The notes beneath the pieces are model-generated. The model was not told the DNA's origin and did no database searches. It saw only the letters and a program-made list of their open reading frames with translations. The position numbers and the translations under genes are program-made. A stretch of DNA of 64,000 bases, from positions 9,176,001-9,240,000 of the forward strand of contig NZ_CP109149.1 of the NCBI RefSeq assembly GCF_035920345.1, written 5' to 3'. This document shows positions 2,338 through 63,150 of this stretch, piece after piece. The first letter of the stretch is position 1. Each line of letters starts with the position of its first letter. The stretch comes from Nocardia vinacea. Its GTDB lineage: Bacteria; Actinomycetota; Actinomycetes; Mycobacteriales; Mycobacteriaceae.

Positions 2338-3054
2338 GTGTGCAGTCCCGTGATCGACGTTGCGGTGGGCAGCGATATCGGCAGACGCTATACGGCGAAT
2401 TTCGATGTCACCTATCTCCGTGAGCAGCCGTTGCTAGCGCTGGTGGCCGATGGCATGGGAGATGGGCCGGGCAGCGCGGCGGCGGGGAGGACTGCGGTAG
2501 ATATCTTCGTCGAACACGTCGCGGATGCGGTCGAACTCGGGCCGGACACGCTGCGTGCCGCAGTGGCGGCGGCGCATGCTCGGGTGAGTCGGATCGGTCA
2601 GGAATTGCGGACTTTGGCCGGATGCACACTGACCGCCATGGTCGCCGCGCCGCAGGGCTGCTGGCTCGTGCAGATCGGTGACTCCCGGGTGTATCGGCTG
2701 CGCGCCGGGCTGCTCGAACTACTGACAACCGACCACACGATGGCGTGGCTCGGCGCTGTGCACGGCTGGTATCCGTTCGATTCACCGCAGGCCGCGTCGG
2801 CGCGGTATCAGCTGACCCGCTACATCGGACACAGTGACTCGCCGGAACCGGATGTGCTGAGCGTGACGATGCAACCCGGCGATAGGTACCTGCTGTGCAC
2901 CGACGGTGTATCCGAGCAGGTCGGCTACGACGACCTCCGGAACTGGTTGAGCCGTGGCGTCAATCCGCAGTCCGTTGTCGTCAGGCTTTTGGCTGCCGCC
3001 GATCGGGCGGGCGGAAACGACAACGCGACGGCTATCGTCCTCTACGTCAACTGA
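2338..3054 (+). CDS. PP2C-family serine/threonine protein phosphatase
   Basis: A metal-dependent phosphatase expected to dephosphorylate Ser/Thr residues. All core PP2C motifs are visible: SDIGRRYTANFD near the N-terminus, the metal-binding DGMGDGPGS (about residue 38), GDSRVYRL, LCTDGVSE and the terminal GGNDNATAIVL. It is a stand-alone domain of about 238 residues without a membrane segment or an adjacent kinase gene. The start is uncertain: the frame is open back to a GTG at 2251 that abuts the padR stop, but the PP2C fold begins within ten residues of GTG 2338, so I prefer the shorter form. Co-transcription with padR is possible. Confidence 0.8.
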   Translation: MCSPVIDVAVGSDIGRRYTANFDVTYLREQPLLALVADGMGDGPGSAAAGRTAVDIFVEHVADAVELGPDTLRAAVAAAHARVSRIGQELRTLAGCTLTAMVAAPQGCWLVQIGDSRVYRLRAGLLELLTTDHTMAWLGAVHGWYPFDSPQAASARYQLTRYIGHSDSPEPDVLSVTMQPGDRYLLCTDGVSEQVGYDDLRNWLSRGVNPQSVVVRLLAAADRAGGNDNATAIVLYVN

Positions 3055-26585: not shown

Positions 26586-27489
26586 TACATCCACCGAATT
26601 CCGTTCCGGCTTCGTCTGTTTCGTCGGCCGCCCGAATACCGGCAAGTCGACGCTGACCAATGCGCTGGTCGGCCAGAAGATCGCGATCACCTCCTCGCGC
26701 CCGCAGACCACCCGCCACACCATCCGCGGCATCGTGCACCGCGAGCACGCCCAGCTCATCCTGGTCGACACCCCTGGTCTGCACCGCCCGCGCACCCTGC
26801 TCGGCCAACGCCTGAACGACCTTGTCCGCGATACGTATTCCGAAGTCGACGTGATCGCGCTGTGTATTCCGGCCGACGAGAAAATCGGCCCCGGCGATAA
26901 GTGGATCCTGCAGCAGATCAAACAGATGGCGCCGAAGACCACTCTGCTCGGTGTGGTCACCAAGATCGACAAGGTGAGCCGCGACCAGGTCGCCGAACAG
27001 CTGATGGCGCTGTCACAACTGCTCGGCCCGGACCACGATGTCGTGCCGGTATCCGCGGTCAAGGGCGAACAGGTCGAGGTCCTCGTCGACGTCATCGCCT
27101 CGAAAATGCCGGAGGGCCCGGCCTTTTACCCCGACGGCGAGCTTACCGACGAGCCCGAGGAAACCCTGATGGCCGAGCTCATCCGCGAAGCCGCCCTGGA
27201 GGGTGTCCGCGACGAGCTCCCGCATTCGCTCGCGGTGGTCATCGAAGAGGTCCTCCCGCGCGAAGAGAACGAAGACCTGCTCGACGTGCACGCCCTGCTC
27301 TATGTCGAACGCTCCTCCCAGAAGGCCATCATCATCGGCAAGGGCGGCGCCCGCCTCAAAGAGGTCGGCACCAACGCCCGCAAACAAATCGAACACATCC
27401 TCGGCGCCCGCATCTACCTACACCTACACGTCAAGGTTGCCAAGGATTGGCAGCGCGACCCGAAACAGCTTGGCAAGCTGGGGTTCTGA
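26578..27489 (+). CDS. era: GTPase Era
   Basis: Ribosome assembly GTPase acting on 16S rRNA, 303 residues. G1 GRPNTGKST, G3 DTPGL, G4 TKID, and a C-terminal KH domain with IIIGKGGARLKEVGTNARKQIE. GTG 26578 overlaps the preceding gene by 8 bases and gives [19 protein letters not shown]; longer readings only duplicate the previous gene in another frame. Last gene of the phoH-ybeY-CBS-era run; YbeY and Era both act on 16S rRNA. Confidence 0.95.
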   Translation: MADTSTEFRSGFVCFVGRPNTGKSTLTNALVGQKIAITSSRPQTTRHTIRGIVHREHAQLILVDTPGLHRPRTLLGQRLNDLVRDTYSEVDVIALCIPADEKIGPGDKWILQQIKQMAPKTTLLGVVTKIDKVSRDQVAEQLMALSQLLGPDHDVVPVSAVKGEQVEVLVDVIASKMPEGPAFYPDGELTDEPEETLMAELIREAALEGVRDELPHSLAVVIEEVLPREENEDLLDVHALLYVERSSQKAIIIGKGGARLKEVGTNARKQIEHILGARIYLHLHVKVAKDWQRDPKQLGKLGF

Positions 27490-61453: not shown

Positions 61454-61526
61454 TCCCCTATAGCTCAATTGGCAGAGCAGCCGACTGTTAATCGGCAGGT
61501 TTCTGGTTCGAGTCCAGATGGGGGAG
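61454..61526 (+). tRNA. tRNA-Asn (GTT)
   Basis: 73-nt cloverleaf: acceptor TCCCCTA/TGGGGGA with discriminator G, D-arm GCTC-AATTGGCA-GAGC, anticodon stem GCCGA/TCGGC around CTGTTAA (anticodon GTT), T-arm TCTGG-TTCGAGT-CCAGA. CCA is not encoded. Its 3' half (61493-61526) is the left attachment site of the mini-element that follows. Confidence 0.95.
61493..61526. other. Left attachment-like site (tRNA-Asn 3' end)
   Basis: 34 bases CGGCAGGTTTCTGG... ending in the discriminator G, identical to 63077-63110. Confidence 0.8.
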
Positions 61527-61530
61527 CATA

Positions 61531-61570
61531 AAAAAGCCCTCTACCAGCGCAAGCAGGTGGAGGGCTTTTC
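61531..61570 (+). terminator. Terminator after tRNA-Asn
   Basis: AAAAAGCCCTCTACC (61531-61545) pairs with GGTGGAGGGCTTTT (61556-61569), a long hairpin followed by U residues. It lies inside the element, so the tRNA terminator may have been supplied by it. Confidence 0.8.
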
Positions 61571-61599
61571 GGTTGTCCGGGGAAATCTCCCCAGATCGA

Positions 61600-61619
61600 C
61601 TACTTTCCGACTACAAACG
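61600..61619. repeat. 20-bp repeat, left copy (arm-type site?)
   Basis: CTACTTTCCGACTACAAACG, identical to 62943-62962. A shorter GACTACTTTCC also recurs at 61623-61633. Confidence 0.7.
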
Positions 61620-62053
61620 AGGGACTACTTTCCCTTCGTGAACTGGTCAAGGGCCTTTCTTGCGTCCGGTCCGACAGTTCGCCGTTCAAGAGCGCCTGCG
61701 GCGGCGCGTGCGCGCCGCCGCCGCGCAACCGGGCACCCTGGCTTCGCTGGCGGGAGCCCGGCGCGTCGGCGGCCCTCACGCGCTATCGGCAGTCACTCCG
61801 AGTTCTGATTGCTGAACGAATCACAGACCCCGGATTCGTCCCGGCACTCTGCCTGATCGACAGCCCCAGCCGCGGCGACCCGCATACGGTGCTGCCGCAC
61901 GAGCTTCGCTCGCTTGTCTCGTAAGACCAGCCTGCCGGACCCACGCACTTGGCCACCGAGCTCCCTTTACCGGTCAGTTGGCTTCCGGGCGCCGGTGAGC
62001 AATGCTTGAATCCAGAGGTATTGACAATTGCTCTGTCAGCGCGCCGGGCACTT

Positions 62054-62614
62054 CTATGATCGGCACTCGAAGGTGAACCACTCGTCGGTCAAGCGTCCGT
62101 CACTCTGTGCGTTGCATCCGTCTTCGGCAGCAGCGCCACGGGGGCGGTGGACGAATCCGCCCGAACCCCCGGCGAAACCCGCTCCCTCGACGGCGAAGTA
62201 GGTGTTGGCGCCTGTCTTCCAGGTCTTGGTGACCTGATAGCTGCCGATGGTCCGTTCGTCTCGGGCAGCCGATCGGTAGTCGTCTCCGCTGTCGGAGTCG
62301 GCCCGGACTTCCGCGAGCGCGCGATCGAACGACGGCTGAGCAAAGTGCCAGCGCGCCTCCAGCGGACTGACGACGAATTGCGGTCCGATCACCGCCGCTA
62401 CCAGGAGCGGAGCAGCAGTCACCCAGAGCCGCGAACCCGCCGGGCGCCAGAGGCTGACGATCACCAGAATCAGCCACGCGATGGCCAGCATGGCGAGCAG
62501 CGCAATGAGTCCGAGGAACAAGGAGCTTCCGCCGCCGTTCGGCTTGCTCCCGATCCAGGCGAGGCCGACGAGCACGCAGGCCGTAGGCGCGAGATGTATC
62601 CGGAGTGCCGTCAT
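62054..62614 (-). CDS. Membrane protein, element cargo
   Basis: 186 residues from ATG 62614 (AAGG 7 bases upstream). Three hydrophobic spans in the first half (ACVLVGLAWIG; LFLGLIALLAMLAIAWLILVIVSLW; LWVTAAPLLVAAVIGPQFVV) followed by a soluble domain (RWHFAQPSFDRALAEVRADSDSG..) with two Cys near the end (DGCNAQS, FECRS). No family recognised. Present only inside the element boundaries, so probably acquired with it. Confidence 0.65.
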   Translation of the reverse strand: MTALRIHLAPTACVLVGLAWIGSKPNGGGSSLFLGLIALLAMLAIAWLILVIVSLWRPAGSRLWVTAAPLLVAAVIGPQFVVSPLEARWHFAQPSFDRALAEVRADSDSGDDYRSAARDERTIGSYQVTKTWKTGANTYFAVEGAGFAGGSGGFVHRPRGAAAEDGCNAQSDGRLTDEWFTFECRS

Positions 62615-62942
62615 CGTGCCTTGTTCTGTGTGTGCCGATGTTTCGATATGAGGATGCCATGGGAGCTGCGCACAAAGGTGTCGAAAAGGTGCAGATACCG
62701 GCGGTGAGGTCGGTGGTATCGCGACCGGTCGCCGCGTGGCCCTGTACTGGGTTGGCCTGCATTGTGATCCCGCGCCCCTCACACCTCGAGGGCGCATTCG
62801 CGTCAGCTCCGCTGATGGCATTCGCCACCCTTGACCTGTGAGCCTCTGCGCGTGAAAGGCAGGCCATATCGGGCAGGCGGTGAGCCAGCCCCTTTGATGC
62901 GCAACCCAACCCAGAACAGGGCCAAGGGAAACGACTCACCTA

Positions 62943-62962
62943 CTACTTTCCGACTACAAACG
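62943..62962. repeat. 20-bp repeat, right copy (arm-type site?)
   Basis: CTACTTTCCGACTACAAACG, same orientation as 61600-61619. Confidence 0.7.
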
Positions 62963-63076
62963 CCCGACGATTGGGGCGTATGACGGCATACGGCGGGGAA
63001 TGATCCACCGCGAAACACACTGGTACCGGCGGGTTTACGGAGACATCAGCGGACAGTTATGGACCGCCGAGAGAAC

Positions 63077-63110
63077 CGGCAGGTTTCTGGTTCGAGTCCA
63101 GATGGGGGAG
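63077..63110. other. Right attachment-like site (tRNA-Asn 3' copy)
   Basis: 34 bases identical to the tRNA-Asn 3' end; the 5' half of the tRNA is missing, so it is not a second tRNA gene. Confidence 0.85.
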
Positions 63111-63119
63111 TATAACTAC

Positions 63120-63150
63120 CAGGTCAGGCACGGTCACCGTGCCTGACCTG
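63120..63150 (+). terminator. Strong terminator after the right attachment site
   Basis: CAGGTCAGGCACGG (63120-63133) and CCGTGCCTGACCTG (63137-63150), perfect 14-bp stem with a 3-nt loop, followed by TTTAG. Probably the original tRNA-Asn terminator, displaced 1.6 kb by the insertion. Confidence 0.8.

Follow-up and report, generated by a model that had tools for sequence, protein, structure and literature searches.

Actinomycete integrative and conjugative elements (AICEs) are common gene vehicles throughout the actinomycetes. In an element that replicates by rolling circle, synthesis of the second strand requires a site that works in one orientation only. A 64-kb window from Nocardia vinacea (the whole stretch of DNA that was analysed; the source genome is a single contig of 10.36 Mb) contains a 1.6-kb segment inserted at tRNA-Asn which, judging from its sequence, is very likely a decayed AICE of the pSAM2 type. 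It retains a structured foldback, here called RE, that is a candidate single-strand origin (sso). What is new is the foldback; the 1.6-kb element itself belongs to a known kind, the cis-mobilizable element (CIME) or product of AICE decay.

CIMEs have lost their integration and transfer genes and kept attL and attR; the term is applied to derivatives of integrative and conjugative elements (ICEs) and of integrative and mobilizable elements (IMEs), and in the available part of the source it concerns the ICESt1-related elements of Streptococcus thermophilus (PMC5704250). The window element is alike in having att sites without integration or transfer genes, but its parent is a RepSA/FtsK-type AICE, and no accretion is seen at the window site. 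Decayed and defective AICEs (DAICEs) of Streptomyces, as far as covered by the available part of PMC9513070, show the same kind of decay. The DAICEs keep traB, however, whereas the window segment has no FtsK-type match, and the window element differs further in lying in Nocardia, in tRNA-Asn, in measuring 1.6 kb and in having kept a conserved foldback. AICE-derived elements without core genes, in the portions of their descriptions that were accessible, lack tra or rep, whereas the window element lacks int, rep and tra; no structured origin is mentioned in those portions.

On pIJ101-type Streptomyces plasmids, the sso (sti) turns the single-stranded DNA intermediate of rolling-circle replication into double-stranded DNA via host factors (available part of PMC4170104). 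RE, too, occurs in elements that have an initiator of the rolling-circle type. The literature on AICEs, pSAM2, RepSA, single-strand origins and single-strand initiation (ssi) sites, including the accessible parts of PMC3218068, PMC9513070, PMC12169178, PMC4170104 and PMC5714925, describes neither a conserved AICE structure nor a start site for AICE second-strand synthesis; subscription papers fell mostly outside the search, and earlier work on the pSAM2 or pMR2 origins may exist. Literature searches on GNA hairpins and telomeres and on repetitive palindromes turned up nothing that seemed relevant.

The insertion at tRNA-Asn and its parent element

The integration target is a tRNA-Asn (gtt) at 61454..61527 (plus strand), identified by a tRNA call and by empty sites in relatives. 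The segment is bracketed by a 42-nt direct repeat with 95% identity and a spacing of 1,584 bp. The left copy (attL core, 61490..61531, plus strand) is the tRNA 3' end, and the right copy (attR core, 63074..63115, plus strand) is the displaced chromosomal tRNA 3' end, which adjoins the tRNA in empty sites. The exact 34-bp copy of the tRNA 3' end that a preliminary description had placed at 63077-63110 is present as the core of this repeat, the far copy ending at 63110. So is the displaced perfect terminator reported there, a 31-nt inverted repeat at 63120..63150 (plus strand) that represents the original chromosomal tRNA terminator; at locus L052, the chromosomal terminator lies directly 3' of tRNA-Asn. 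A 159-nt query, the tRNA joined to the sequence after attR, was searched in 150 Nocardia genomes. The empty site was found as one stretch, with 90-97% identity, in at least seven of them (G138, G063, G023, G050, G066, G041 and G106; 158 of 159 nt in G023), and at least eight further rows matched 146-159 nt from the query start at 79-82% identity. The preliminary description had proposed an insertion that restored the tRNA 3' end, to be checked by looking for empty sites in relatives; these sites bear it out and, at the level of sequence comparison, confirm the 1,584-bp segment as a real insertion. The 3' part of the present tRNA was presumably supplied by the element.

Two perfectly identical copies of a 21-bp direct repeat, presumed integrase arm sites, lie one inside each end of the insertion (61599..61619 and 62942..62962, both plus strand). 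The first 16 bases of this repeat occur nowhere in the 64 kb but at these two sites, even with up to two mismatches, against 0.01 expected. An element-borne terminator hairpin, an inverted repeat at 61532..61569 (plus strand), follows 3' of attL.

An apparently complete AICE of 9.84 kb, att to att, occupies tRNA-Asn in genome G149 (locus L089). It encodes Int (PF00589), RepSA (PF20199), FtsK_SpoIIIE (PF01580), DUF2637, GntR/UTRA and DUF218, a gene set that is the hallmark of AICEs, and a 144-aa protein with no Pfam match. Its left end matches the window element in the terminator after tRNA-Asn (84%) and in the left arm (88% over 105 bp, including an identical 21-bp repeat beside int). Its right end matches in parts of a conserved non-coding block, LE, in RE (85%), in the right arm (69%, with a 91% copy of the 21-bp repeat to the right of RE) and in the att copy (35/35). 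Thus the repeats, given as 20 bp in the preliminary description and to be sought next to a full-length integrase, do adjoin an open Int frame elsewhere.

The window element has kept the last 21 codons and stop of an integrase on the minus strand (61625..61690; LERRTVGPDARKALDQFTKGK followed by the stop, in frame; tblastn E 1e-6 over the last 17 residues). Twenty of the 21 residues are those at the end of the G149 Int, whose C-terminus is LERRTMGPDARKALDQFTKGK. A complete tyrosine integrase gene is absent, in agreement with the earlier view of the segment as a remnant or non-autonomous element. No PF20199 match occurs in the 1.6-kb segment, and tblastn of the RepSA and FtsK proteins of relatives against 61454-63150 gave nothing better than E 0.47. 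Among the marks of a complete AICE, insertion at a tRNA 3' end with direct repeats is present, and int, RepSA and an FtsK/SpoIIIE-type TraB are missing. With attL and attR kept and the integration and transfer genes lost, the segment fits the definition of a CIME, and the same tRNA, the homologous ends and the integrase C-terminus argue for its derivation from a complete element related to that of G149.

In the simplest history, a tyrosine integrase would have inserted the ancestral AICE, restoring the tRNA 3' end and shifting the chromosomal 3' end with its terminator to attR. A single internal deletion would then have taken out rep and tra completely and spared only the end of int. It may have run through a short TCAAG(A) homology, a motif present on both sides near the junction where the sequence upstream of the int remnant runs into LE. 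Besides the int remnant, the deletion would have left the two att cores, each with its arm repeat, and between them LE, a passenger gene and the RE foldback. Since neither att site and neither arm repeat has been lost, mobilization by another integrase is possible; were an AICE with a matching integrase to enter the cell, it might still excise the relic or capture it by accretion. The empty, complete and collapsed states of one tRNA site are all found within the genus, which shows a conjugative element shrinking to its ends.

The segment could instead be a working mini-element, a satellite kept by selection and mobilized in trans when an AICE supplies the same integrase: its att cores and arm repeats are all intact, the passenger open reading frame (ORF) is unbroken and closely matched by proteins from Nocardia sp. 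N2S4-5 and from JGI data, and G018 carries a smaller att-bounded segment at tRNA-Asn. This is nevertheless unlikely, given a source genome with a single RE match and no close relative of the G149 integrase (three matches at 33%, 30% and 32%, the last covering less than half its length), a 21-codon int remnant of the sort expected from decay by deletion, no whole-segment copy in 40 genomes besides the window's own, and a broken pair in the RE tip. The preliminary description had likened the layout to phage-satellite or cassette elements, for which its small size, its tRNA site and its one gene may be cited, as may an 83% identity of 61498-61579 (tRNA end plus element terminator) to 27126-27207 of Gordonia phage Easley (MH155867) and a weak holin-like Pfam match of the passenger ORF (E 0.17, below cut-off). 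That likeness was dropped because one internal deletion of an AICE explains the layout. The parent is of the RepSA/FtsK type, the conserved parts recur in the G149 AICE, and the strict pattern of the RE tip (see below), which the window's own tip also fails, has no match in viral_contigs, so that a phage satellite or cassette is now very improbable. As to phage-satellite genes, two ORFs had no Pfam match above cut-off and the passenger had no NCBIfam match, PHROGs not being covered. A local duplication of the tRNA end without any insertion has the direct repeat in its favor and nothing more; it is refuted to near certainty by the contiguous empty sites and by the homologous complete element at the same site.

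The RE foldback and its three-hairpin tip

Retained in the decayed AICE, RE is a structured foldback of ~205 nt at 62720..62926, the minus strand being its likely functional strand, and is defined by its homologues and their covariation. Homologues occur in at least 85 of the 150 Nocardia genomes, with up to five matches each. A minus-strand structure of 53 pairs was derived from 38 copies (38 of 39 references; the partial second copy L082:10889-11095 was excluded), in which 97.0% of the cells are paired, as compared to 32-50% when the structure is slid along the alignment. Eighteen pairs show compensatory double changes, and none of 500 shuffles reaches any of the five measures used. Several pairs are A-C on the plus strand where the minus strand has G-U, which favors the minus strand as the candidate; at pair 179-202 of the plus-strand fold the bias is the opposite. 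The fold z-scores are -3.5 (plus) and -3.9 (minus). In Rfam, only the tRNA reaches the gathering score in the window stretch and 11 related loci, and the sole match over RE, BjrC174 (E 7.2), is below threshold.

At the apex of RE sits a tip of three mini-hairpins (62786..62834, minus strand), scored by the tip covariance model (R2) at 55.4 bits (E 5e-18). The d(GCGNAGC) or C-GNA-G type of DNA hairpin is exceptionally stable and is found in phage origins as well as at the ends of linear replicons. Of 38 RE copies collected by similarity alone, 35 have C-GNA-G in the middle mini-hairpin; the window tip has C-GNA-G in its middle loop only. Across 76 distinct tips (from 81 matches), the CGNAG word occurs three times in 39, twice in 24, once in 10 and not at all in 3, and two or more such words appear in about 5% of single-base shuffles. 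Many of these tips had been picked with a pattern in which the middle loop is fixed, and the selection-free count is 35/38. A strict tip pattern gave 80 matches in 49 of the 150 Nocardia genomes and none when reversed; by eye, these matches sit on at least three different long stems.

In the tip covariance model, 99.4% of the cells are paired. Within the class Actinomycetes it matched, at E <= 1e-3, 115 of 394 genomes, which belong to 50 of 137 genera; the E-values are rough, and the weakest matches may be chance. Among the matches listed, named contigs with a tip include those of Streptomyces, Frankia, Labedaea, Nonomuraea, Actinomadura, Actinokineospora and Planosporangium.

RE is also oriented with respect to the initiator gene. 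RepSA occurs in at least 77 of the 150 Nocardia genomes at E 1e-20 or better. Strands were compared for 122 hand-picked RE rows (excluding short fragments and the row of the window itself) and 129 RepSA rows among the matches listed, short fragments being mostly left out. Within this set, 43 of the 122 RE copies have a RepSA within 20 kb, and in every one of these 43 the functional strand of RE is also the coding strand of RepSA. The nearest RepSA is downstream of RE in 39 and upstream in four; since G045 and G144 have a second RepSA on the same strand and on the usual side, only two copies in G109 are true positional exceptions. Outside Nocardia, the tip and a long RepSA match share a strand at four of four loci in three genomes (L171, L172, L173 and L179), the tip lying between rep and int at L171 and L172. 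Fold, conservation and orientation of RE are thus established as properties of the sequences.

A candidate single-strand origin

Because RE is conserved as a single-strand fold and is bound to the RepSA strand, we infer that it may be an sso, acting as DNA and in priming, a reading with about an even chance of being right. Two traits that would mark an sso, a conserved non-coding fold and a fixed orientation to the initiator gene, were both found, the latter in 43 of 43 copies with a RepSA within 20 kb among the matches listed. The displaced strand would fold into a stem with three apical mini-hairpins, at which host enzymes might prime. RE would thus have been, and may still be, the origin of second-strand synthesis during a rolling-circle stage.

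Several observations weigh against this reading. The window RE tip has one broken outer-stem pair (an A-C mismatch), tip loops are not uniform (39 of 76 have three CGNAG words), and at 23 RE loci there were three clusters of three C-GNA-G hairpins against four of C-GNC-G, the latter class being counted on both strands. For 79 of the 122 RE copies, no RepSA lies up to 20 kb away on their contig, for which contig ends, other replicases or relics may be the causes. The 43 same-strand copies are not independent since AICE gene order is partly inherited, and at L175 a short RepSA fragment is opposite in orientation to three tips. RE differs from sti in that the tip model, with filters off, fails to match pIJ101, a plasmid with a known sso (best E 0.2; the full model, R1, was not used), and in that RE-type tips occur on several stems. 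Finally, inverted pairs of tips occur in other Nocardia elements, and in other genomes such pairs have hardly any AICE gene near them, which a single sso does not explain.

The named plasmid pMR2 of Micromonospora rosaria has a RepSA-type initiator (38% identical), and the tip model fails there as well (best E 0.14). Mini-hairpins and a long hairpin lie in its non-coding part, at 2381-2570 and 2821-3040 (L310). The mini-hairpins are three perfect C-GNA-G ones on the rep strand, in a stretch of about 72 bases; the long hairpin is near-perfect, at -135 kcal/mol (RNA parameters). The mini-hairpins count as weak support, because a scan with shorter stems in 450 kb of background also yielded clusters, one of C-GNA-G and 12 of C-GNC-G.

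Thirteen inverted tip pairs, with tips 0.3-2.5 kb apart, were examined in Nocardia, and G110 and G112 have pairs with both tips in the same orientation. The inverted pairs (L127-L138 and L087) are found on three stem classes; tblastn detected no RepSA at the 13 loci, several of which carry DUF2637 or Int. Among the matches listed, all 15 pairs in Streptomyces (loci among L192-L268) face apart and all three in Nocardia face each other; in the stretches of 5-8 kb covered, AICE proteins match at two of the former (GntR only) and two of the latter (DUF2637). No consistent gene was found between the tips of these 18 pairs in named contigs, and the idea of a gene cassette was rejected. G570 has 14 tip matches, seven of them of identical score among the highest, and no AICE protein matched around the tips, which stand in inverted pairs or singly, in seven stretches of G570 and G561 (L164-L170). 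A helicase-like protein of the paired-tip elements has a sub-threshold AAA_25 match (24.5 and 21.8 vs 27 bits), and searches of NCBIfam and of solved structures with these proteins returned nothing. The pairs could be two initiation sites, one per strand, for a helicase-type replicon. In arrangement they resemble ssiA and ssiB of RSF1010, two inverted single-strand initiation hairpins (paired primase sites) on opposite strands.

Two other functions of RE were considered, each of them unlikely. If RE acted as RNA, either as a small non-coding transcript or as a structured leader ahead of the passenger gene, the strong minus-strand covariation, the position of that gene on the same strand, the bias to GU rather than AC on the minus strand and the z-scores on the two strands would be accounted for. 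However, no Rfam match is above threshold, on which ground an RNA family was rejected; by eye, the alignments show no conserved promoter-like block beyond the stem and the ORFs downstream of RE differ between copies; C-GNA-G triloops are a stable motif of DNA; and RE follows the RepSA strand even where it is placed differently in the element. The conservation of RE, its position outside the annotated genes of the G149 AICE, its bound orientation and the two tips of some elements would suit a nick origin (double-strand origin, dso), a transfer locus (clt) or the binding site of an element-encoded protein. To this it can be objected that the tip is common to RepSA elements and to elements with no RepSA found in the stretch examined, which speaks for a host factor over a single protein of the element. 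LE and RE as the ends of a separate mobile unit (of the omega-RNA, bridge-RNA or miniature inverted-repeat transposable element (MITE) type) were set aside because 20 other loci have no long flanking repeats (chance-like repeats of 13-14 nt at three) and because RE is found in elements that possess int, rep and tra.

Somewhat more speculative than the sso itself is a wider grouping, which we offer tentatively. RE and its tip may belong to an undescribed family of single-stranded DNA initiation sites of Actinomycetes, with a cloverleaf of three mini-hairpins, frequently C-GNA-G, on interchangeable long stems. Such sites would be single and on the displaced strand in RepSA elements and in inverted pairs, with one on each strand, in elements with another replicase; the scattered inverted pairs of Streptomyces were possibly spread by the replication machinery, and the sites would be kept in deletion relics. 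RE is a testable candidate for the start of AICE second-strand synthesis, with strong matches in many genera, and can be used as a marker for AICEs and their relics in draft genomes.

Other contents of the segment and related loci

The LE block (61686..61965, minus strand) is conserved and non-coding; an LE match is present at 15 of 20 other RE loci and absent from five. A GC-rich hairpin lies within it, and several relatives have TTGCTGAAC repeated there; the block is possibly a regulator or transfer-protein site.

The passenger gene (62054..62614, minus strand) encodes 186 aa with three hydrophobic stretches by hydropathy, probably a membrane protein. Four homologues in a large protein set, one of 186 aa at 95%, one of 186 aa at 90% (Nocardia sp. 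N2S4-5) and two of 196 aa at 74%, make it very probably a real gene. Read as 255 aa, the ORF has no Pfam match above cut-off (best DUF5337, E 7e-5, 23.1 vs 27 bits) and none in NCBIfam. No relative was found in named genomes, and the 150 Nocardia genomes hold four remote relatives (29-34%) besides its own copy. This probable membrane-protein gene, noted in the preliminary description, is not the only content, as the segment also holds the 21 integrase codons and two conserved non-coding blocks.

Att copies at tRNA-Asn lie at other distances in other genomes: 9 kb in G013, 13.4 kb in G003 and 0.6 kb in G018. The 0.6-kb segment of G018 (L051, 143-858), smaller than the window element, has a terminator and left arm like those of the latter. 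At L067 (G009), the 300 bp upstream of the tRNA are 96% identical to the window and the window's downstream DNA is unmatched after tRNA-Asn; because of this difference, the site may be an insertion hot spot. The stretch of phage Easley that matches the tRNA end and terminator is annotated as tyrosine integrase, and the match suggests an attachment site common to phage and window element.

Two further loci of the source genome carry AICE parts. At 5060803-5062341 and 5062771-5063358, RepSA in a 660-aa open frame is followed by a 446-aa integrase frame, a probable further AICE. An LE piece (9922190-9922232) and a RepSA fragment (9927285-9927767), 5 kb apart, are possibly a second AICE relic.

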